From: Epinephelus fuscoguttatus
Lineage: Eukaryota > Chordata > Actinopteri > Perciformes > Serranidae
DNA length: 64,000 nt
Direction: 5' to 3'
Assembly (NCBI RefSeq): GCF_011397635.1
Contig: NC_064769.1
Coordinates: 40,534,033 to 40,598,032 of the forward strand
The translations under genes were made by a program, and so were the position numbers. The notes under the pieces are model-generated. The model did no database searches and was not told where the DNA came from. It worked only from the letters and a program-made list of their open reading frames with translations. This document shows, piece by piece, positions 1,524 through 52,006 of this stretch; the stretch's first letter is position 1; every line of letters starts with the position of its first letter.

Positions 1524-21703
<20,180 letters not shown>

Positions 21704-32163: not shown

Positions 32164-32169
32164 TTTATT
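32164..32169 (-). terminator. Polyadenylation hexamer AATAAA overlapping the cfap53 stop codon
   Basis: Minus strand reads GAA-TAA-AAG: the TAA stop is the middle of AATAAA, implying a 3' UTR of only a few tens of bases. Confidence 0.6.
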
Positions 32170-32456
32170 CATATAAACCATCAGAGTAACGTGGGGCTGC
32201 GCAGGCTGACCCTGTGTGTCGCTGTCTGGAGGCAGACCTGGTGCATCCCTCTGTTCGTCTGAACGGATGGGGGGCGCTGGCGTGAGACGTAGGTCTGGAC
32301 AGGATGTGGTCTTTCCTCTGTTCGTACAGCTGCTGCAGGATCACACCCTGCTGCTGCTCCCTCTCCTCCTGAGCTCTCTGCTCACTGTGGCGCCACTGCT
32401 GAGCCTCGATCTGAGCCTTCAGGTCGGCCTGGTACGCCTCGGAGCTCTGCTTCTGA
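32165..32456 (-). CDS. cfap53: cfap53 last exon
   Basis: QKQSSEAYQADLKAQIEAQQ, then HSEQRAQEEREQQQGVILQQ and a basic tail ending SDGLYE. Stop TAA at 32165-32167 lies inside the AATAAA hexamer. Confidence 0.88.
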
Positions 32457-33895: not shown

Positions 33896-34900
33896 ATTGT
33901 GTCATGTGGATTACTGTTAATTTATCATGCTGATCTGTTCTGTACGACATCTATTGCTCGTCTGTCCGTCCTGGAAGAGGGATCCCTCCTCAGTTGCTCT
34001 TCCTGAGGTTTCTACCGTTTTTTCCCCGTTAAAGGGTTTTTTGGGGAGTTTTTCCTGATCAGGTGTGAGGGTCATAAGGACAGAGGGATGTCGTATGCTG
34101 TAAAGCCCTGTGAGGCAAATTGTGATTTGTGATATTGGGCTTTATAAATAAAATTGATTGATTGATTGATTGATAAACTGAATCCAACTGAAATCATGTG
34201 GCGGCAGAATTTGTGACATCATCAAACATCAAACAGTCCAAATAAACAATAATCAGATTTGATCTACAACCTGATCAGAGAGCGTGTCCTGGACTCACCA
34301 TCTCCTGTCCTCCTCCTCCATCAGCTTCATCTCCTCCATCACTCTGTTCAGCTCGTCTCTCTCTGCAGACAGCTCCGCCTGTTTCTGTGTGTTCAGGTCC
34401 ACTGCAACACACACACACACACACAAAACTAAGGAACTACTTTCAGCAGTGGAGTAATAATTACATCTGACAGAGAGCGTGTCTCTTACGTTTGTGTTGG
34501 ATCTGCAGACGTCGAGCCTCCATCACCTCCTCCATCAGTCTGTTTCTGGCCTCTCGCTGCAGTCGGCTCTGCTCCTCTCTTTTAGCCCAAACCTCCTTCA
34601 GTTTCTCCTCCATCAGCTGCTCCGTCTCCTCCTCCTCCCTCCTCTGCTTCTGTAGCTCCTCAGACAAATACTGCCGGTACCTCCGCTGCTCCTCACGCAG
34701 CTCAGCCTGAACAACACAGAGTACAGCGGGGAGGTCGACATGTTTCAGATATTCAAAAACAGGCTGCTCCTCCATCAGCTTTTAGCAAACAGGCTCACGC
34801 TGTGTGGTGGCGAGCCCAAAGGTCTGTCAGGTCAGCTGGAGACGGTTGTTACACAGTCAGTTCACATGTTATAGTCCACATGGTCTCAGGTGTTTTTGAT

Positions 34901-34948
<48 letters not shown>

Positions 34949-37900
34949 TTGTTGTATCTAAACAGTAACGTACTTCATCCATCTGTTGCAGGCTCACTGT
35001 TTCATTTCATGTTATATTCATAATGAACTGTTGTGAAACAGTAGCTTTATAAAGGTTTGATTTTTTTCAGCACTTTAAACTCCTTCATATTATTTCTCAT
35101 GACAGAGGATCCTCCTGGACTAACTACATGGGAGGCTGAGCAGTGTGACGCTAACGGTAAAAACTAAAAGACTCAAAAGCTCCTTTTTTTTTTTTGAAAG
35201 CCTATCATTAACTCTGGGGACCACCCGCCCCCCCACACAGTGACAGTCTGTGATGGGGTTGGCTGTCACAGTGTGTCAGAGAGTCTTTGATGGTTAATCA
35301 CAGGTAAAGTCTGGGATTTACCTTCTTGTGAGCAGCTTCCTGTTTGTCATCAGTTTCCTGTTGGAGCAGCGTCTGCAGGATGTTCATGTCCAGCTGCAGC
35401 TCATCCTGCTGCTCTCGAGCCAGACGCTTCATCTTCAGCCGCAGACACTGATCCAGCTGCCGCCGTCTTCCCTGCTGCTGCTGCAGCGTCGTCTGCTGCT
35501 GGCGCTGCTGCTGCAGCTGCTGCATCTGCTGCTGCTGCAGCTGGTGGAGACAAGATGAGACTCATCTGAGGGGTATTCCAGGTAGGAGGTTCAACAAACT
35601 CTGAGTCTAACCCTGAACTCTGAGTTACCGGTTCCAGAACAGCTGATCTGAGTTAGTTCAGTCAACTCTGAGTATGTTCACTCTGAGTTAAGCCGACAAT
35701 AAAAAGCCATCATCAATGGAGCTCCGACTCCACGATTCACCATGGCAACAGGTCAATAAAAGACAGCGCCTCCATTTTAATCCAGTGGATGTAGAGATAT
35801 TAATGCATGTGTAGCAGACGGTGCACGTTTATCTTTAAAAGAAGAGCCTGAGTCAGAGCGAGGAAAGTGTCAATAAGTTAACCATAAAGTTAATAAAAAA
35901 GTTTATTCATCATTTATCAGACTTACATTTCCTTAATGAAGATAAAGTGGTGGAATCTGACTGTGTATCAGGCTGTAGATACATTACATTATATTAATAA
36001 TATATCATAATATATTTGTTCAGGTTTAATCTGATGGGGAAAAACACAGGAGGCAGAAGATTTCAAACATATAGGCTAGGCTATAGATCAAAGACATAAA
36101 GACATGACTGTAAACTCACAGTCTGACCCAGTAATAATATGTTTGGTGATTTGCACCTGAAAAGACGTTGAGGTTAAAATACAGTAGATTTGAAAATGCT
36201 GCACATCTATTTGTATCTTGACTCAACAGCATTCAGTGACTTTATTTCAGCTACAAATGTAGTAAATGTAAAGACAGTGAAATGCTGCACCATTGCTCAC
36301 TCAGAAATATGAACATATAATCCCCAATATTAGGCTATAGGAGTTATGTTCCATCAGTGCGACCAGTGACATCAGTGATAGAGATCATTAGTCACTGATA
36401 CTACGTGTCTAAAGCTTCATACCCATTTTAACATTTAAATAATTAGACCTACACATTATGTGCAATAAACATGTGGGAGCTGCTCTGACAGACTGACAGT
36501 CTGATCCTTGTGCACAGTGTTATAAAAATAATAAATATAAAAAGGACAGAGGTTTGATTCTGAGCTGAGGGTGAATTCTCGCTGTGTAATATTTGAATGT
36601 AAAGACAAAAGCTGATGTCCAAAGAAATGACTGATGTGCATAAATTCAGTAACTTCAGACAGTCCTGAGTAACAAACTAATATCCAGCAGGATTTAGACT
36701 GTGACAGACGGTAAATCTCCGCTAATGAACGCGCTTTGATACAAGCTTTGACACGGACTGAATGAATGAGGAAATGAAACAGCCTGTAAGAGGGAGGAGA
36801 CAGAGAGAAACCTAACCAGCGAGCAGGTTATGTTCACAGACTCAGTTGCCATGGTGACTGACTCAGAGTTTGATCTACCTCTCTTTCTGGAACTGAAAAC
36901 CCAGAGTTTCCCTCATTTCATGCTCAACATACTCAGAGTTTTCACTAAACCCGCTTTCTGGAATACCCCTCTGGACAACAACAACACTTCACTGTTATTA
37001 ATTGATTATTCTGAAAATGAATGCATCTCATGATAAGTCATTTAATCTTGCTGGTGTTTACAGACCACCATCGGCTGTTGCTGGTGCGATTGGTGCTTTG
37101 GCTGATTTGCTCACTCAGTTTGAGCATTCTGAGCTACTGATCCTGGGTGACCTAAACCAGACCTGGTTGTCAAATGATTCATCCAGTTTAAAGTAGTTGT
37201 GTGCAAATTTCAATCTGTCACAACTGAAGAACCAATTAGACCAAATTTAAAGGACCCATCAAAGTCTACCCTGATTAACTTCATTGTTTCAAATAGGAAG
37301 GAAAACATGACTGCTTGTCCTAAGCACAAAGCTTTCTGTAATAGTTTTTAAAGAGGATGAAACTTCTTGTAATAGTTTCTAAAGAGAATGAAACTTTTGG
37401 TAATAGTTTTTAAAGAGGATGAAACTTTTGGTAATAATTTTTAATGAGAATGAAACTTTTTGTAATAGTTTTTAAAGAGAATGAAACTTTTTGTAATAGT
37501 TTCTAATGAGAATGAAACTTTTGGTAATAGTTTTTAAAGAGAATGAAACTTTTTGTAATAGTTTCTAATGAGAATGAAACTTTTGGTAATAGTTTTTAAA
37601 GAGAATGAAACTTTTGGTAACAATTTTTAAAGAGAATGAAACTTTTTGTAATAGTTTCTAATGAGAATGAAACTTTTGGTAATAGTTTTTAATGAGAATG
37701 AAACTTTTGGTAATAATTTTTAAAGAGAATGAAACTTTTGGTAATAGTTTTTAAAGAGGATGAAACTTTTGGTAATAGTTTTTAATGAGAATGAAACTTT
37801 TGGTAATAGTTTTTAAAGAGAATGAAACTTTTTGTAATAGTTTCTAATGAGAATGAAACTTTTGGTAATAGTTTTTAATGAGAATGAAACTTTTGGTAAT

Positions 37901-40900
37901 AATTTTTAAAGAGGATGAAACTTTTTATAATAGTTTTTAAAGAGAATGAAACTTTTTGTAATAGTTTTTAAAGACAGTGAAACTTTTGGTAATAGTTTTT
38001 AAAGAGAATGAAACTTTTGGTAAAAGTTTTTAATGAGAATGAAACTTTTTGTAAGAGTTTTTAAAGAGGATGAAACTTTTTGTAATAGTTTCTAATGAGA
38101 ATGAAACTTTTTGTAATAGTTTTTAAAGAGGATGAAACTTTTGGTAATAATTTTTAATGAGAATGAAACTTTTTGTAATAGTTTCTAATGAGAATGAAAC
38201 TTTTTGTAATAGTTTTTAAAGAGAATAAAACTTTTTGTAATAGTTTTTAAAGAGAACGAAACTTTTGGTAATAGTTTTTAAAGAGAATGAAACTTTTGGT
38301 AATAGTTTTTAATGAGAATGAAACTTTTGGTAATAGTTTTTAATGAGAATGAAACTTTTCGTAATAATTTTTAAAGAGGTTGAAACTTTTTATAATAGTT
38401 TTTAAAGAGAATGAAACTTTTGGTAATAGTTTTTAATGAGAATGAAACTTTTGGTAATAGTTTTTAAAGAGAATGAAACTTTTGGTAAAAGTTTTTAATG
38501 AGAATGAAACTTTTTGTAAGAGTTTTTAAAGAGGATGGAACTTTTTGTAATAATTTTTAATGAGAATGAAACTTTTGGTAATAATTTTTAAAGAGAATGA
38601 AACTTTTTGTAATAGTTTCTAATGAGAATGAAACTTTTTGTAATAGTTTTTAAAGAGAATGAAACTTTTGGTAATAATTTTTAAAGAGAATGAAACTTTT
38701 GGTAATAGTTTTTAAAGAGGATGAAACTTTTGGTAAAACATTTTTAATGAGAATGAAACTTTTTGTAATAGTTTCTAATGAGAATGAAACTTTTTGTAAT
38801 AGTTTTTAAAGAGAATAAAACTTTTTGTAATAGTTTCTAATGAGAATGAAACTTTTGGTAATAGTTTTTAATGAGAATGAAACTTTTGGTAATAATTTTT
38901 AAAGAGAAGGAAACTTTTGTAATAGTTTTAAAGAGGAATGAAACTTTTGTAATAGTTTTTAAAGAGAATGAAACTTTTGTAATAGTTTTTAATGAGTATG
39001 AAACTTTTGGTAATAATTTTTAATGAGAATGAAACTTTTGGTAATAGTTTTTAAAGAGAATGAAACTTTTTGTAATAGTTTCTAATGAGAATGAAACTTT
39101 TGGTGATAGTTTTTAATGAGAATGAAACTTTGGTAATAATTTTTAAAGAGAATGAAACTTTTTATAATAGTTTTTAAAGAGAATGAAACTTTTGGTAATA
39201 GTTTTTAATGAGAATGAAACTTTTGGTAATAATTTTTAAAGAGAATGAAACTTTTGGTAATAGTTTTTAAAGAGGATGAAACTTTTGGTAATAGTTTCTA
39301 ATGAGAATGAAACTTTCTGTAATAGTTTCTAATGAGAATGAAACTTTTTGTAAGAGTTTTTAAAGAGGTTGAAACTTTTTATAATAGTTTTTAATGAGAA
39401 TGAAACTTTTTGTAATAGTTTTTAATGAGAATGAAACTTTTTGTAATAGTTTCTAATGAGAATGAAACTTTCTGTAAGAGTTTTTAAAGAGGTTGAAACT
39501 TTTTATAATAGTTTTTAATGAGAATGAAACTTTTTGTAATAGTTTTTAAAGACAGTGAAACTTTTGGTAATAGTTTTTAAAGAGAATGAAACTTTTTGTA
39601 ATAGTTTCTAATGAGAATGAAACTTTTTGTAATAGTTTTTAAAGAGGATGAAACTTTTTGTAATAGTTTCTAATGAGAATGAAACTTTTTGTAATAGTTT
39701 TTAATGAGAATGAAACTTTTGGTAATAGTTTTTAATGAGAATGAAACTTTTCGTAATAATTTCTAATGAGAATGTAATGCATTTACAATAGTTTTTAAAG
39801 AGGTGAAACTTTTATAATAGTTTTTAAAGAGAATGAAACTTTTTTGTAATAGTTTTTAAGAGAATGAAACTTTTGGTAATAGTTTTTAATGAGAATGAAA
39901 CTCCTCTGCTTGTAATAGTTTTTAATGAGAATGAAACTTTTGTAATAATTTTTAATGAGAATGAAACTTTTATCAATATTTTTAAAGAGAATGAAACTTT
40001 TTGTAATAGTTTCTAATGAGAATGAAACTTTTTGTAATCGTTTTTAATGAGAATGAAACTTTTGGTAATACTTTTTAAAGAGAATGAAACTTTTGGTAAT
40101 AGTTTTAAGAGAATGAAACTTTGTGAAACATTTTTAAAGAGAATGAAACTTTTTGTAATAGTTTCTAATGAGAATGAAACTTTTTGTAATAGTTTTTAAA
40201 GAGAATAAAACTTTTTGTAATAGTTTCTAATGAGAATGAAACTTTTGGTAATAGTTTTTAATGAGAATGAAACTTTTGGTAATAATTTTTAAAGAGAATG
40301 AAACTTTTTGTAATAGTTTTTAAAGAGGATGAAACTTTTTGTAATAATTTTTAAAGAGAATGAAACTTTTTGTAATAGTTTTTAAAGAGGATGAAACTTT
40401 TGGTAATAATTTTTAATGAGAATGAAACTTTTGGTAATAGTTTTTAAAGAGAATGAAACTTTTTGTAATAGTTTCTAATGAGAATGAAACTTTTGGTGAT
40501 AGTTTTTAATGAGAATGAAACTTTGGTAATAATTTTTAAAGAGAATGAAACTTTTTGTAATAGTTTTTAAAGAGAATGAAACTTTTTGTAATAGTTTCTA
40601 ATGAGAATGAAACTTTTGGTGATAGTTTTTAATGAGAATGAAACTTTTGGTAATAGTTTTTAAAGAGGATGAAACTTTTGGTAATAGTTTCTAATGAGAA
40701 TGAAACTTTCTGTAATAGTTTCTAATGAGAATGAAACTTTCAGAATGAAACGAATGAAACTTTAATAGTTTGATGGAGACAGACAGGTGGGGACAGACAT
40801 GACAGACAGATGGGGACAGACAGGTGACAGACAGGATGGGACAGACAGGTGGGGACAGACAGTGATGGAGACAGACAGGATGGGGACAGACAGGTGGGGA

Positions 40901-43602
40901 CAGACAGACAGGACGGGGGACAGGTGGGTGACAGGTGGTGGGGAGACACAGGTGGGGACAGACAGATGAGACAGACAGTTGCTGATATGGGGACAGACAG
41001 ATGGGGACAGACAGATGAGACAGACATGAGACAGACAGGTGACAGACAGATGGAGACAGACACGTGGGGACAGACAGGTGGGGACAGACAGTTGGTGACA
41101 GACAGTTGGTGACAGACAGGTGGGGACAGACAGGTGGGGACAGACAGATGGGGACAGACAGGTGGGGACAGACAGATGGAGACAGACAGGTGGGGACAGA
41201 CAGATGGAGACAGACAAGTGGGGACAGACAGGTGGGGACAGACAGGTGGAGACAGACAGATGGGGACAGACATCTGGGGACAGACAGGTGGGACAGACAG
41301 ATGGAGACAGACAGGTGGGGACAGACAGATGGAGACAGTCGACAGGTGGGGACAGACAGATCAGACAGTCAGACAGGTAGACATGAGGACAGACAGATGG
41401 AGACAGACAGGTGGGGACAGACAGATGGGGACAGACAGATGGAGACAGACAAGTGGGGACAGACAGGTGGGGACAGACAGATGGAGACAGACAGGTGGGG
41501 ACAGACAGTTGGGGACAGACAGATGGAGACAGACAGGTGGGGACAGACAGGTGGGGACAGACAGAGGGAGACAGGTGGGGACAGACAGTTGGGGACAGAC
41601 AGGTGGGGACAGACAGATGGAGACAGACAGGTGGGGACAGACAGTTGGGGACAGACAGATGGAGACAGACAGGTGGGGACAGACAGATGGAGACAGACAG
41701 GTGGGGACAGACAGGTGGGGACAGACAGATGGAGACAGACAGGTGGGGACAGACAGGTGGGGACAGACAGATGGAGACAGACAGGTGGGGACAGACAGGT
41801 GGGGACAGACAGATGGAGACAGACAGGTGGGGACAGACAGGTGGGGACAGACAGATGGAGACAGACAGGTGGGGACAGACAGGTGGGGACAGACAGATGG
41901 AGACAGACAGGTGGGGACAGACAGGTGGAGACAGACAGGTGGGGACAGACAGGTGGGGACAGACAAGTGGGGACAGACAGGTGGGGACAGACAGATGGAG
42001 ACAGACAGGTGGGGAGAGACAGGTGGGGACAGACAGATGGAGACAGACAGGTGGGGACAGACAGATGGAGACAGACAGGTGGGGACAGACAGGTGGGGAC
42101 AGACAGGTGGGGACAGACAGGTGGGGACAGACAGGTGGGGACAGACAGATGGAGACAGACAGATGGAGACAGACAAGTGGGGACAGACAGGTGGGGACAG
42201 ATAGGTGGGGACAGACAGGTGGGGACAGACAGGTGGGGACAGACAGGTGGGGACAGATAGGTGGGGACGGACAGATGGAGACAGACAGGTGGGGACAGAC
42301 AGGTGGGGACAGACAGATGGAGACAGACAAGTGGGGACAGACAGGTGGGGACAGATAGGTGGGGACGGACAGGTGGGGACAGACAGGTGGGGACAGATAG
42401 GTGGGGACGGACAGATGGAGACAGACAGGTGGGGACAGACAGATGGAGACAGACAGAGTAATTGTACACTGTGATATTGCTTCTTTTGCTCCAGTAAAGA
42501 TCTGAGAACTCGTGCCCGCTGTAGAGAGACATTATGAGACCAGACGAGGTAAAAGTGTCCCTCCACAGACGAACCTGTCCCTCCTCTCGTCCACGTGGAT
42601 CTTCTGTTGGTCCAGAGCAGCTCGGACTTGTCTCTCGATGGTTCCTGTCAGGAAACGGCGCTCTGAACTCTTCAGCCATGAAGTCTTGATGTCACAGCTC
42701 CGCTGGGACTTAGCGAAGTCCAGGACTTTGTCTCGAGCAGCGTCTTGTTTCTGTCTGTCCAGGATCAGCTGGTCCGCAGGTCTCTGGGACGGGAACTTTG
42801 CTCTCTGAGACAAAACAAAGACATTCATTATAATCTGAGATTTGAATTAACTACTACAGGAGGACTGTCCCGTCCTGTCCACACCCACCAATCATGTCTG
42901 ACAAAGACTTTAATAACTCACTGAGCAGCACGTTAGCTTTAAATTATTAAATAATATGAAATCATATGATGCATGTTAATAAATATAAATGTATTTGTGA
43001 TTTATTTTCTCGTCTGTATCGATTAGTATTTCTGTAACTGAATTTATGCACAATAAAGACAGTTGGGAAAAAAACACTTCCACTGTTATGCTGTTGCTAC
43101 GGCAACAGCTTTGGTCCGTGTTTACTTCCTGTCAGCTGATGCATCAACAAACATTCCGACAGGAAACACAGAGACGCATTTAAGGTTCATGTTGCCACGT
43201 TACAAAAGATGTTTCACAAAAACTAATTCAAGTCAACCAGCTGCAGAGGACACAACATGAATCCACCCACAGTCTGTTAGCTCCATGCTAACTCATAATG
43301 GGAGTTATCATAAACGCGCTAACGCAAATTAGCATCGCGAGAACACGATCGTAATAAACGGTTTGAGTTCACCTGAACATTAAACAACATGTTTGATCTC
43401 ATTTACAGACATGGCGTCCTCTGCTCTGCTGATGACGTCACACCGTCAGCTCGGTACTGCTGTTACTGTGATCCCCGTGGACTGTTTGTCCGGTCCCGCC
43501 CCTCGTGATGAGTGGAGCGTGTCGGTGTCTCACCACGGCCACGGAGTGAGGCGTCGGTCCCGTTATCTCCCGACATCTTGTTCTTCTTTGACTCAGCAGC
43601 AT
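32165..43602 (-). CDS. cfap53: Cilia- and flagella-associated protein 53; both ends present, centre missing
   Basis: Coiled-coil protein of motile cilia and centriolar satellites, needed for left-right asymmetry (family knowledge). Exon 1 (MLLSQRRTRCREITGPTP) aligns with the family start (SQR..VQREVKGPTP). Exon 2 carries SSERRFL and KIHVDERRDR. The last four exons carry the C-terminal coiled coil (LQEEADKK-like, EARNRLMEEVMEARRLQIQ). Roughly 170 residues expected between exon 2 and the exon at 35322 are not found; that interval holds a transposon, a LINE scrap and two minisatellites. Either the exons were lost in assembly or the gene is damaged. Upstream lies an X-box. It neighbours myo5b as in human 18q21. 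Confidence 0.85.
32545..32960. repeat. Fragments of the dispersed TGACCTTTGACCT repeat
   Basis: Triple half-site TGACCTTTGACCTTTGACCT at 32601-32620 and a second piece at 32885-32960. Lies in the last cfap53 intron. Confidence 0.8.
33100..34175 (+). mobile_element. L2-like LINE, 3' part with intact C-terminal frame
   Basis: Reads NLGVTFDQDLSFNSHLKQTS, RLDYCNSLLSG, LQLIQNAAARVLTGTKKRDH and ISPVLASLHWLPVKSRIEFK, the end of a non-LTR RT ORF, with a stop after FLFDKAYS at 33744. The 3' UTR has a CT-rich run (33835-33890) and ends in AAATAAAATTGATTGATTGA. 5'-truncated insertion in a cfap53 intron. Confidence 0.88.
34299..34401 (-). CDS. cfap53: cfap53 penultimate exon
   Basis: LDLNTQKQAELSAERDELNR then VMEEMKLMEEEDRR. 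Acceptor TTGCAG next to a short (GT)n tract, donor GTGAGT. Confidence 0.88.
34490..34706 (-). CDS. cfap53: cfap53 coiled-coil exon
   Basis: AELREEQRRYRQYLSEELQK through EARNRLMEEVMEARRLQIQ. Acceptor GTTCAG, donor GTAAGA, phase 1 out. Strong match to the family C-terminal coiled coil. Confidence 0.9.
34903..34945. repeat. (AC)n microsatellite
   Basis: About 21 units in a cfap53 intron. Confidence 0.97.
35322..35540 (-). CDS. cfap53: cfap53 coiled-coil exon (Gln-rich)
   Basis: Reads a Gln-rich start then LKMKRLAREQQDELQLDMNI and LLQQETDDKQEAAHKK, matching the family stretch ending LQEEADKKK. Donor GTAAAT; acceptor CACCAG is the best of several CAGs. Confidence 0.82.
35569..36970. mobile_element. 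Non-autonomous PIF/Harbinger-like transposon with TIRs and CTG target duplication
   Basis: Terminal inverted repeats AGGGGTATTCCAG (35569-35581) and CTGGAATACCCCT (36958-36970). CTG flanks both sides (35566-35568, 36971-36973), a 3-bp duplication as in Harbinger. The 1.4-kb interior has no transposase. Right end shares about 190 bases with 18398-18586. Contains GTTGCCATGGTGAC (36845-36858), the reverse complement of an X-box. Confidence 0.75.
36985..37330 (+). mobile_element. LINE endonuclease fragment
   Basis: Reads VYRPPSAVAGAIGALADLLT then SELLILGDLN, the central AP-endonuclease motifs; frameshifted after SNDSSSLK. Abuts the 31-bp minisatellite. Confidence 0.65.
37331..40765. repeat. 31-bp AT-rich minisatellite, about 110 copies
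   Basis: Unit GTAATAGTTTTTAAAGAGAA plus TGAAACTTTTG, with AAAGAG/AATGAG, TTTTTA/TTTCTA and GGTAAT/TGTAAT variants in mixed order. Each unit has T- and A-tracts spaced by 31 bases (about three helical turns). Occupies the interval where central cfap53 exons are expected. Confidence 0.97.
40772..42457. repeat. 14-bp G-rich minisatellite, about 120 copies
   Basis: Alternating ACAGACAGGTGGGG and ACAGACAGATGGAG units. Three 14-bp units make 42 bases, so all frames stay open; the long open frames on both strands are artefacts. Ends against cfap53 exon 3. Confidence 0.97.
42466..42528 (-). CDS. cfap53: cfap53 exon 3, start only; runs into a minisatellite
   Basis: After a CTCTCTACAG acceptor-like tract the strand reads RARVLRSLLEQKKQYH, resembling LRELLALEENEYF of the family. 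About 60 bases in, it becomes the CAGACAGGTGGGG repeat. The exact acceptor is unclear: the strong one gives a wrong frame, and a later TTCTCAG gives R-SLLEQKKQYH. Confidence 0.45.
42575..42804 (-). CDS. cfap53: cfap53 coding exon 2
   Basis: Starts RAKFPSQRPADQLI after a TCTCAG acceptor and ends HVDERRDR at an AG|GTTCGT donor. Matches the VRSKPP..SSERDRL..NIEERRNK region of the family. Confidence 0.87.
43534..43602 (-). CDS. cfap53: cfap53 coding exon 1
   Basis: 23 codons, MLLSQRRTRCREITGPTPHS then VAV, phase 0 GTGAGA donor. The ATG at 43600-43602 is chosen from the match to the family N-terminus. Confidence 0.85.
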
Positions 43603-44792: not shown

Positions 44793-46417
44793 CAGTACAG
44801 GCCAAAAGTTTGGACACACCTTCTCATTCAATGCGTTTTCTTTATTTTCATGATTATTTACATTGTAGATTCTCACTGAAGGCATCAAAACTATGAATGA
44901 ACACATGTGGAGTTATGTACTTAACAAAAAAAGGTGAAATAACTGAAAACATGTTTTATATTCTAGTTTCTTCAAAATAGCCACCCTTTGCTCTGATTAC
45001 TGCTTTGCACACTCTTGGCATTCTCTCCATGAGCTTCAAGAGGTAGTCACCTGAAATGGTTTTCCAACAGTCTTGAAGGAGTTCCCAGAGGTGTTTAGCA
45101 CTTGTTGGCCCCTTTGCCTTCACTCTGCGGTCCAGCTCACCCCAAACCATCTCCATTGGGTTCAGGTCCGGTGACTGTGGAGGCCAGGTCATCTGCCGCA
45201 GCACTCCATCACTCTCCTTCTTGGTCAAATAGCCCTTACACAGCCTGGAGGTGTGTTTGGGGTCATTGTCCTGTTGAAAAATAAATGATCGTTCAACTAA
45301 ACGCAAACCGGATGGGATGGCATGTCGCTGCAGGATGCTGTGGTAGCCATGCTGGTTCAGTGTGCCTTCAATTTTGAATAAATCCCCAACAGTGTCACCA
45401 GCAAAACACCCCACACCATCACACCTCCTCCTCCATGCTTCACAGTGGGAACCAGGCATGTGGAATCCATCCGTTCACCTTTTCTCGTCTCACAAAGACA
45501 CGGCGGTTGGAACCAAAGATCTCAAATTTGGACTCATCAGACCAAAGCACAGATTTCCACTGGTCTAATGTCCATTCCTTGTGTTTCTTGGCCCAAACAA
45601 ATCTCTTCTGCTTGTTGCCTCTCCTTAGCAGTGGTTTCCTAGCAGCTATTTGACCATGAAGGCCTGATTCGCGCAGTCTCCTCTTAACAGTTGTTCTAGA
45701 GATGGGTCTGCTGCTAGAACTCTGTGTGGCATTCATCTGGTCTCTGATCTGAGCTGCTGTTAACTTGCGATTTCTGAGGCTGGTGACTCGGATGAACTTA
45801 TCCTCAGAAGCAGAGGTGACTCTTGGTCTTCCTTTCCTGGGTCGGTCCTCATGTGTGCCAGTTTCATTGTAGCGCTTGATGGTTTTTGCGACTCCACTTG
45901 GGGACACATTTAAAGTTTTTGCAATTTTCCGGACTGACTGACCTTCATTTCTTAAAGTAATGATGGCCACTGGTTTTTCTTTAGTTAGCTGATTGGTTCT
46001 TGCCATAATATGAATTTTAACAGTTGTCCAATAGGGCTGTCGGCTGTGTATTAACCTGACTTCTGCACAACACAACTGATGGTCCCAACCCCATTGATAA
46101 AGCAAGAAATTCCACTAATTAACCCTGATAAGGCACACCTGTGAAGTGGAAACCATTTCAGGTGACTACCTCTTGAAGCTCATGGAGAGAATGCCAAGAG
46201 TGTGCAAAGCAGTAATCAGAGCAAAGGGTGGCTATTTTGAAGAAACTAGAATATAAAACATGTTTTCAGTTATTTCACCTTTTTTTGTTAAGTACATAAC
46301 TCCACGTGTTCATTCATAGTTTTGATGCCTTCAGTGAGAATCTACAATGTAAATAGTCATGAAAATAAAGAAAACGCATTGAATGAGAAGGTGTGTCCAA
46401 ACTTTTGGCCTGTACTG
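44793..46417 (-). mobile_element. Tc1/mariner transposon with broken transposase, inserted in a LINE
   Basis: 1,625 bp. Long terminal inverted repeats beginning CAGTACAGGCCAAAAGTTTG, flanked by the TA duplication (44791-44792, 46418-46419). The minus strand carries a transposase start MARTNQLTKEKPVAIITLRN, paired helix-turn-helix region, GRPR-type hook, catalytic motifs WSDESKFEIFG, FQQDNDPKHTS and SPDLNPMEMVWGELD (DD34E class). At least two frame breaks between 45400 and 45490 separate the D1 half from the rest, so it is inactive. Confidence 0.95.
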
Positions 46418-48215: not shown

Positions 48216-50621
48216 TCAGACTTCAGGTAGAACAAAACGTTGCTTTATTAGAAACAAGACAGGGAGAGGGTTTGAGGGAGTCGATGGGAGGGTGGGAACC
48301 ACCACCTTTCTAGGGACCAGTTGTGGTGGAGGAGACGCCAGTTGTGGTGGAAGAGGCGCCAGTTGTGGTGGAAGAGGCGCCAGTTGTGGTGGAAGAGGCG
48401 CCAGTTGTGGTGGAAGAGGCGCCAGTTGTGGTGGAAGAGGCGCCAGTTGTGGTGGAGGAGGCGCCAGTTGTGGTGGAGGAGGCGCCAGTTGTGGTGGAGG
48501 AGGCGCCAGTTGTGGTGGAAGAGGCGCCAGTTGTGGTGGAAGAGGCGCCAGTTGTGGTGGAAGAGGCGCCAGTTGTGGTGGAAGAGGCGCCAGTTGTGGT
48601 GGAGGAGGCGCCAGTTGTGGTGGAGGAGGCGCCAGTTGTGGTGGAGGAGGCGCCAGTTGTGGTGGAGGAGGCGCCAGTTGTGGTGGAGGAGGCGCCAGTT
48701 GTGGTGGAGGAGGCGCCAGTTGTGGTGGAGGAGGCGCCAGTTGTGGTGGAAGAGGCGCCAGTTGTGGTGGAGGAGACGCCAGTTGTGGTGGAGGAGGCGC
48801 CAGTTGTGGTGGAGGAGGCGCCAGTTGTGGTGGAAGAGGCGCCAGTTGTGGTGGAAGAGGCGCCAGTTGTGGTGGATTAGGCTCCAGTTGTGGTGGAGGA
48901 GTCGCCAGTTGTGGTGGAGGCGCCAGTTGTGGTGGAGGGCGCCAGTTGTGGTGGAGGAGGCGCCAGTTGTGGTGGAGGAGGCGCCAGTTGTGGTGGACGA
49001 GGCGCCAGTTGTGGTGGAAGAGACGCCAGTTGTGGTGGAAGAGACGCCAGTTGTGGTGGAAGAGTCGCCAGTTGTGGTGGAAGAGGCGCCAGTTGTGGTG
49101 GAAGAGGCGCCAGTTGTGGTGGAAGAGGCGCCAGTTGTGGTGGAAGAGGCGCCAGTTGTGGTGGAAGAGGCGCCAGTTGTGGTGGAAGAGGCGCCAGTTG
49201 TGGTGGAAGAGGCGCCAGTTGTGGTGGAAGGCGCCAGTTGTGGTGGAAGAGGCGCCAGTTGTGGTGGAAGAGGCGCCAGTTGTGGTGGAAGAGGCGCCAG
49301 TTGTGGTGGAAGAGGCGCCAGTTGTGGTGGAAGAGGCGCCAGTTGTGGTGGAAGAGGCGCCAGTTGTGGTGGAAGAGACGCCAGTTGTGGTGGAAGAGGC
49401 GCCAGTTGTGGTGGAAGAGGCGCCAGTTGTGGTGGAAGAGGCGCCAGTTGTGGTGGAAGAGGCGCCAGTTGTGGTGGAAGAGGCGCCAGTTGTGGTGGAG
49501 GAGACGCCAGTTGTGGTGGAAGAGACGCCAGTTGTGGTGGAAGAGACGCCAGTTGTGGTGGAAGAGACGCCAGTTGTGGTGGAAGAGACGCCAGTTGTGG
49601 TGGAAGAGACGCCAGTTGTGGTGGAGGAGACGCCAGTTGTGGTGGAGGAGACGCCAGTTGTGGTGGAAGAGACGCCAGTTGTGGTGGAAGAGACGCCAGT
49701 TGTGGTGGAAGAGGCGCCAGTTGTGGTGGAAGAGGCGCCAGTTGTGGTGGAAGAGACGCCAGTTGTGGTGGAAGAGACGCCAGTTGTGGTGGAAGAGACG
49801 CCAGTTGTGGTGGAAGAGACGCCAGTTGTGGTGGAAGAGACGCCAGTTGTGGTGGAGGAGACGCCAGTTGTGGTGGAGGAGACGCCAGTTGTGGTGGAGG
49901 AGACGCCAGTTGTGGTGGAGGAGGCAGCAGTTGTGGTGGAGGAGGCGCCAGTTGTGGTGGAGGAGGCAGCAGTTGTGGTGGAGGAGGCGCCAGTTGTGGT
50001 GGAGGAGACGCCAGTTGTGGTGGAGGAGACGCCAGTTGTGGTGGAGGAGACGCCAGTTGTGGTGGAGGAGGCAGCAGTTGTGGTGGTCGTTGGAGTCGTG
50101 CTTTTGCAAGGTGGAGTCGTGCTTTTGCAAGGTGGAGTCGTGCTTTTGCAAGGTGGAGTCGTACTGGTGGTCGTTGGAGCCGTGCTTTTGCAAGGTGGAG
50201 TCGTACTGGTGGTCGTTGGAGCCGTGCTTTTGCAAGGTGGAGCCGTGCTTTTGCAAGGTGGAGCCGTGCTTTTGCAAGGTGGAGCCGTGCTTGTGGTTGC
50301 AACTCTGGGGGGTTGGTCGCCAGTAAATGGTCCATCAGGAATTATGTTAAACCCCCATAGCTCAAAGATTCCTGCATCAGCCGACTGTGTGGTTACTGGT
50401 TTTGTGGTCACTGCTGCTGAATCAGGGGTCGTCGTGGTCACTTCTGGCTGGAATGGTTCGACAGGAACCTCCTCAAAGTTCCAAAGCTCCCACAGGTCGG
50501 GTTCATCCAGAGCTCTTCGGGGACGATCCCGCCCTCTTTGTGTTGCTGTGTTGAAACATGCCACCAGCATCGCAGACATTTCCCCTGCGGAGTTGGTGTA
50601 AATCATTTCAAAAGTGGATTC
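48216..50621 (-). CDS. ZP-N/mucin-like gene exon 5 (repeat exon)
   Basis: Begins ESTFEMIYTNSAGEMSAMLV, then LDEPDLWELWNFEEVPVEPF and GIFELWGFNIIPDGPFTG, a duplicated LWELWNF/FELWGFN motif, before the repeats. As written the frame ends LPEV-stop at 48216. In the original TTTG frame a TAG at 48310-48312 would stop it right after the array. Confidence 0.65.
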   Translation of the reverse strand, partial: ESTFEMIYTNSAGEMSAMLVACFNTATQRGRDRPRRALDEPDLWELWNFEEVPVEPFQPEVTTTTPDSAAVTTKPVTTQSADAGIFELWGFNIIPDGPFTGDQPPRVATTSTAPPCKSTAPPCKSTAPPCKSTAPTTTSTTPPCKSTAPTTTSTTPPCKSTTPPCKSTTPPCKSTTPTTTTTAASSTTTGVSSTTTGVSSTTTGVSSTTTGASSTTTAASSTTTGASSTTTAASSTTTGVSSTTTGVSSTTTGVSSTTTGVSSTTTGVSSTTTGVSSTTTGVSSTTTGVSSTTTGASSTTTGASSTTTGVSSTTTGVSSTTTGVSSTTTGVSSTTTGVSSTTTGVSSTTTGVSSTTTGVSSTTTGVSSTTTGVSSTTTGASSTTTGASSTTTGASSTTTGASSTTTGASSTTTGVSSTTTGASSTTTGASSTTTGASSTTTGASSTTTGASSTTTGASSTTTGAFHHNWRLFHHNWRLFHHNWRLFHHNWRLFHHNWRLFHHNWRLFHHNWRLFHHNWRLFHHNWRLFHHNWRLFHHNWRLVHHNWRLLHHNWRLLHHNWRPPPQLAPPPQLATPPPQLEPNPPQLAPLPPQLAPLPPQLAPPPPQLAPPPPQLASPPPQLAPLPPQLAPPPPQLAPPPPQLAPPPPQLAPPPPQLAPPPPQLAPPPPQLAPPPPQLAPLPPQLAPLPPQLAPLPPQLAPLPPQLAPPPPQLAPPPPQLAPPPPQLAPLPPQLAPLPPQLAPLPPQLAPLPPQLAPLPPQLASPPPQLVPRKVVVPTLPSTPSNPLPVLFLIKQRFVLPEV

Positions 50622-52006
50622 CTGTAAAACATTCGGTTATCAGCCATCACCTGAATATTTACGAACCAGATCATGTTTCAGACATTCCTTACCATGTTCG
50701 CTGGTGCCGATATCTGTACGTACGTGGTACCTGAGCTCATTGTGACTGTCTTCCCAAGTACACCGTGTTTACCAAGAGCTTTTACTCTTGTCAGTCTTGC
50801 TCCAAGAGGCAGTTTCACAATCACATCTGTTGATCTGCAGGTCACCAACGGCGGTGCCAGTTGCAGCGAAGTTGCAGGATTCTCGCAGGCAGCCACACCA
50901 GTTACGGTCTCCTGCAGCAGATGGTCGAAGTAACGCAGTCTCAGCTGGTGAAACCATGATCCGTTAGAAACCTGTAGGAAAAAAAACAAAACAAAAAAAA
51001 AAACAAGTCAGCAGGAACATATCCAGTTTAACCAGTCATGCTCTTTCTCAGCCTCCAACAGTCTTCTGGCTGCAGCTTCAAGAAATGGAAAAGCATGTCA
51101 GGATTCCCCAAAGCTCAGAGTGACGTCTTTCATTGTCTCATTCTGTCCGTCCGACTGTTCCAAACCCAAAACAGATTCAGCTGACTGCGATGAAAGTGAC
51201 CGAGGAACTGTACATCTGAACCAGTGACTCAGATATGACCAAAATATTTATGAAGAATATCAACTGATTGTTTTAGCGCCAACAATACAGAAATACATTG
51301 AGATTCATGGTGCGATTATCAGCCCTCAATAAACACTGGTTTATTTATTTAAAAAAAAAAAAAAAAAGATTAAAGTTTAAAATCTGCAGTTTCATTCAAT
51401 GATTCATTGAATCTGCCAAATACCTACATCTGGAAGAATCATGGGGCGAAAAAAAATGTGCACATTTCTCTGGAAAGAGGGAACAATTTAAAAAGTGCAA
51501 TAACCTAACAAAGTTGTCTAAAGGAGAGTTTGTCTTTAATGCACCAAAGTGCAGCGATTGGTAACAGTAATCAGTATTTTTATGGTGCAGAGCTGGGCGC
51601 AGTGACTCTGGTGCAGTGAGTAGTAACAAAGGTGTTGAACAGTTTTACCCATAATTCCATGTGGCAGCTGGTATACGGGACGTTTATCAGCAGCCAGGGT
51701 CTAAAGGTCTGAAGAGAAGCCTGACATCCGTCCTGCAGGGACAGCAGCCTCGTCCCGTCTGTGGAGACACATGACAAACTGAGGTCTGTGGTTCTAGCGC
51801 TCCTGCAGGGGGCGTTCAGTCTGCTGGGACAAAACTGACACGAGATGACATGTGACAGCCTGAGGACATAAAGCACGAGGGCGAGAGCCTGCAGTTTCTC
51901 CCATTTATTCAGTGTTTTCTGCAACAGCTTGTTATGATTTAAGTTTTATGTATTTTTGGACTTTGAGAAAAAAAACAAAAAAAAACAAAACAAAAAAAAA
52001 CACAAA

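Follow-up and report, generated by a model that had tools for sequence, protein, structure and literature searches.

Central cfap53 exons missing at two joined minisatellites: a probable false partial gene loss in a fish assembly

The cfap53 gene of Epinephelus fuscoguttatus keeps both of its ends in the present assembly, and no recognisable central exon lies in the 7 kb between them, where two minisatellites meet. Judging from the sequence, the middle of the gene was probably dropped by the assembly at the joined arrays (rough probability 0.6), which would make this a false partial gene loss. CFAP53, also called CCDC11, is a microtubule inner protein of motile cilia and a centriolar satellite protein, and the locus does not point to a novel type of system. 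The window, by which we mean the whole 64,000-nucleotide stretch analysed, corresponds to positions 40534033-40598032 of a 41,309,532-base contig, lies ~0.71 Mb from the end of that contig, and belongs to a 1.047-Gb assembly of 26 contigs. Positions below are those of the window unless the contig is named. A wider local search region of 274 kb (contig positions 40524033-40798032, 5 kb of which is N) was made up of 10 kb on the left, the window itself and 200 kb on the right.

Results

Both ends of cfap53 are intact

Six exons were found on the minus strand, and their numbering presumes eight exons, the count given for mouse Cfap53 in PMC8195676. Exon 1 (43534-43602) carries the start codon and MLLSQRRTRCREITGPTPHSVAV, aligns with urchin-chain residues 1-23 and ends at the donor GTGAGA; exon 2 (42575-42804; match 157 bits) ends at the donor GTTCGT and is left in phase 2. 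Exon 5 (35322-35540), with a glutamine-rich start, is entered in phase 0 and is followed in phase by exon 6 (34490-34706), exon 7 (34299-34401) and exon 8 (32165-32456), the last with the stop codon, and all four share in the C-part match to CFAP53. The sequence-only reading had reported both ends with the centre lacking at two minisatellites, which we also observed, and its exon blocks at 43602-42575 and 35540-32165 turned out to be exact to the base. No stop or frameshift interrupts the 375 codons, and the internal boundaries are GT/AG. The N part amounts to 99 codons plus 2 nt and the C part to 276 codons plus the stop, its exons joining in phase; in 2000 nucleotide shuffles the C part was open in 0 and the N part in 37 (1.85%).

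By both ends the minus-strand gene is, on similarity, CFAP53. In phmmer searches of chains from solved structures, residues 1-109 of the 112-residue N query aligned with residues 1-109 of 8snb_4F (E 6.5e-26), followed by four chains named CFAP53 (E 6.2e-09 to 1.9e-07), and residues 4-253 of the 276-residue C query aligned with 8snb_4F residues 263-510 (E 3.6e-28), followed by four chains named CFAP53 (E 2e-17 to 3.8e-12) and by FAP53 (4.1e-04). We take 8snb to be from urchin, 8i7r from mouse and 7rro from bovine. RNF168 chains, which also appear in the C-query list at E values of 0.033 and higher, seem to reflect coiled-coil noise. A Pfam scan of the C part returned 0 families at E 0.001, and none of the 13 genome-wide matches to TPH (PF13868) fell in the cfap53 locus; TPH may not define the CFAP53 family. 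A second cfap53 copy was considered and set aside, because the exon-2 query reported the cfap53 locus as its sole match genome-wide (157 bits; 1 candidate scored). The neighbourhood also fits what would be expected around CFAP53: a myosin motor exon lies at 3786-4262 on the minus strand, its top matches being to myosin Va (E 3.2e-36; the subclass is putative), which points to a class V myosin gene as the cfap53 neighbour in the window. In human, MYO5B presumably adjoins CFAP53.

The missing segment is the most conserved third

In the phmmer alignments exon 2 ends at urchin residue 99 and exon 5 starts at about residue 260, which leaves ~160 residues (urchin 100-259) homeless, or ~144 (117-259) if a 16-residue exon-3 start described below is real. 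Thus the central loss proposed earlier stands, and its size is nearer 160 than the ~170 residues first given. The locus differs from known CFAP53 in this one respect, that an equivalent of this segment was not found there. Between the urchin and mouse CFAP53 chains the missing central third is the most conserved part, with 64/159 identities (40%) compared with 29/96 (30%) and 70/240 (29%) in the flanks.

Central exons hidden inside the interval or displaced nearby were sought by tblastn in the window and in the 274 kb (5 kb of which is N), and none was found, so that both possibilities were dropped. Against both strands of the window, the best 60 matches of the mouse central segment amounted to coiled-coil noise, the top one falling on exon 6. 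Across the 274 kb, among matches above 27 bits, the urchin central query reached 35.0 bits at best, landing on exon 6, and the mouse central query 28.1 bits, in a tandem array, whereas the urchin end pieces recovered exon 2 (68.9 bits), exon 6 (66.2) and exon 5 (54.3) over the same region. Genome-wide, a 170-residue urchin central query gave one match, on another contig, of 16.5 bits (E 4.65); run without a positive control from the full-length urchin query, this search carries less weight than the local one.

A possible start of exon 3 borders the 14-bp array

An apparent start of exon 3 had previously been seen in LRSLLEQKKQYH, running directly into the 14-bp repeat. Lengthened to 16 residues it becomes LRSLLEQKKQYHSVQL (42459-42506, minus strand), with the acceptor CTCTACAG ending at 42519, and it is identical to each of three CFAP53 chains at 4/16 positions. 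Across six frames, 42 of 547,900 positions reached its prefix score, which corresponds to 0.008 expected within the 100 nt past exon 2; this chance estimate is post hoc, since the stretch was picked after being seen, and it weakly suggests an exon-3 start above chance. The array begins 2 nt past the 16 residues and 14 nt past QYH, in agreement with the earlier description. The stretch is in frame with exon 2 only via a donor 4 nt further on (TTC/gtctgt), which inserts FRARV, and the frame is lost from the consensus-like donor (AG/gttcgt). By eye, CACA/gtgtac can be read as a weak possible donor at the edge between exon 3 and the array. Either exon 3 would be cut by the array, or it would be short with the array lying in the next intron. 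DNA folding around this junction was uninformative (z -0.06).

Indels are massed where the two arrays join

Repeat detection and unit alignment placed 110 copies of a 31-bp unit at 37332-40740 and 122 copies of a 14-bp unit at 40774-42456, matching the 3.4 kb and 1.7 kb of repeat reported before. Relative to the consensus units the two arrays hold 48 indels. The 429 bp of the join (40632-41060) account for 21, where 4.0 would be expected if the indels were uniform, and in 5000 uniform random placements no 429-bp window held more than 16. The outermost 1.4 kb of the 31-bp array (37332-38738) and 0.9 kb of the 14-bp array (41570-42456) have zero indels, and lesser clusters occur at 38.7-39.1, 39.8-40.1 and 41.3-41.6 kb. 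As controls, five other arrays profiled in the window showed 0 to 7 indels per 429 bp; for three arrays further right the range was 0 to 4. Two nearby 19-bp arrays, in contrast, showed 3 to 16 per 429 bp along their whole extent, which may reflect units of variable length. Since these arrays equal the count at the join, the absolute number was dropped as evidence and only the localisation of the indels is used. On that localisation the indel-dense join is read as a candidate assembly seam.

Abutment of arrays is not odd per se, since a further abutting pair (157115-158226 and 158222-168316) is present in the 274 kb, as are arrays of ~9 and ~10 kb without N. Four stretches taken from the repeat units have no exact copy in the 274 kb outside both arrays. 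This region near the contig end contains 13 tandem arrays of at least 0.7 kb with units of at least 6 bp, the 31-bp and 14-bp arrays included, and two arrays ~80 kb apart have almost the same 19-bp unit. Starting ~39 kb past the right end of the window (window coordinates 103001-108000; contig positions 40637033-40642032) are exactly 5000 consecutive N, which could be either a gap in the assembly or sequence that was withheld and which adjoin a 3.8-kb array of 12-bp units. On the cfap53 sense strand (minus) all three frames of the 14-bp array are open, two for ~1.1 kb and the third for the whole 1.7 kb, which is probably due to its CT-rich unit.

Discussion

The sequence-only reading left the choice between mis-assembly and a disrupted gene. 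The facts on which it drew were confirmed, and we lean to mis-assembly because both ends are intact and open, the exon-2 query has a single match, the conserved third was not found, and indels are massed where the arrays abut. In the animal, the central exons of cfap53 (two, if the mouse count holds) would sit between or beside the two minisatellites; the assembler would have fused the 14-bp to the 31-bp array at ~40.63-41.06 kb and so lost the intervening unique sequence, exons included. Alternatively, the trigger may have been an array too long for the assembler to place. The intact ends, the middle that was not found, the abutting arrays and the indels at their join are observed; an assembly error at that join, and central exons still present in the fish, are inferred. 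Moreover, male mice without Cfap53 are sterile (PMC8195676) and loss of Cfap53 in zebrafish leads to laterality defects (PMC9481976), so that a fixed null would be costly.

False gene loss through missing exons has been described for vertebrate assemblies in a study that lists repeats among the causes in its title (PMC9516821). Here too internal exons are missing and the flanking exons are intact and open; the loss was shown there against better assemblies, whereas at cfap53 it is read from one assembly's sequence alone. Neither 'minisatellite' nor 'tandem repeat' occurs in the main text of that paper, and its fish assembly had the fewest missing exons of the study, which argues against a false loss. 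Assembly errors are known to be caused by tandem repeats, and Atlantic cod is one of the examples (PMC6868369); the errors covered in that source are collapse and missing genes, whereas here two arrays would have been joined over lost exons. If the loss is false, comparative studies on this assembly would wrongly record a truncated or lost cfap53, and the locus would offer a compact test case of exons dropped between tandem arrays.

Several observations do not sit well with an assembly error. The edge of the 14-bp array is clean 2 nt past the exon-3 start, and the first 0.9 kb of that array is indel-free; an error between the arrays would not by itself account for a cut so near to coding DNA, except if a short exon 3 were followed by an intron that houses the array. 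Minisatellite edges may decay naturally. The lesser indel clusters elsewhere in the two arrays, and the abutting pair and long N-free arrays nearby, also weigh against a false loss.

The same clean junction keeps alive a real and recent deletion of the central exons on the sequenced haplotype, with minisatellite growth after it or alongside, which we consider possible and clearly the less probable of the two accounts. One breakpoint would tentatively fall within exon 3 or next to it, the other in the intron ahead of exon 5. The sharp switch between the exon-3 start and the indel-free 14-bp repeat has the look of a true junction; the exon start itself, which scores above chance yet stops at 16 residues and does not share a frame with the better exon-2 donor, also favours a deletion. 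Spliced through the consensus-like donor, exon 2 joins exon 5 in the wrong phase and the reading frame reaches a stop ~35 codons on, so that the allele as written, if the deletion is real, would be null. Zebrafish cfap53 mutants are described as adult viable (PMC9481976), which means that a carrier or a homozygote could have been sequenced. Against a deletion, the remaining exons have kept their 375 codons open, the indel noise lies at the join of the arrays, and male fertility in mice needs Cfap53 (PMC8195676). Were it real, this would be a natural cfap53 allele with effects expected on left-right patterning and male fertility.

It is unlikely that the central exons lie elsewhere in the assembly, for example through a scaffolding error, or are too diverged to be detected. 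Room for displaced or unseen exons is left by the genome-wide search, run without its positive control, by the mere 10 kb covered on the left in the local one, and by the 5000 N to the right of the window. The sole genome-wide match is not convincing, however, and the tblastn search of the 274 kb did recover exons 2 and 6, while the middle gave exon-6 or array noise; moreover, the segment that would have escaped detection is the most conserved part of the protein.

A working shortened gene, in which the exon-2 donor TTC/gtctgt splices to exon 5 in frame and the central rod is absent, is very improbable: this splice does hold the frame across the join (80 residues examined), but it requires the donor judged weaker by eye and gives up the most conserved part. 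Still harder to credit is the fuller claim that minisatellite growth truly removed the central rod, that an in-frame Cfap53 from the shifted donor survives, and that motile cilia work without the segment.

Other elements in the window

Between exon 5 and the 31-bp array lies an inverted-repeat element (35568-36971), for which we found a pair of 24-bp terminal inverted repeats (35568-35591 and 36948-36971) that are 83% complementary; its assignment as Harbinger-like is the label of the sequence-only reading and is putative. Next to it, the reported LINE scrap corresponds by eye to an endonuclease-like frame at 37002-37196 on the plus strand. A minus-strand frame at 18242-18634 has, again by eye, a long stretch in common with the plus-strand frame at 36770-37033 inside the inverted-repeat element, and probably represents another copy of this element. 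Two overlapping ORFs on the minus strand (44959-46114), ~1.4 kb upstream of cfap53, match HTH_Tnp_Tc3_2 and DDE_3 and resemble a Tc1/Tc3-like transposase. Further upstream, an 806-residue ORF on the minus strand (48219-50636) runs across a 21-bp array (48317-50086) and has a non-repetitive head; its repeat is threonine-rich and mucin-like (STTTG, TAPPCKS), with no Pfam match to the ORF, and it could be a coding minisatellite within a secreted-protein gene.
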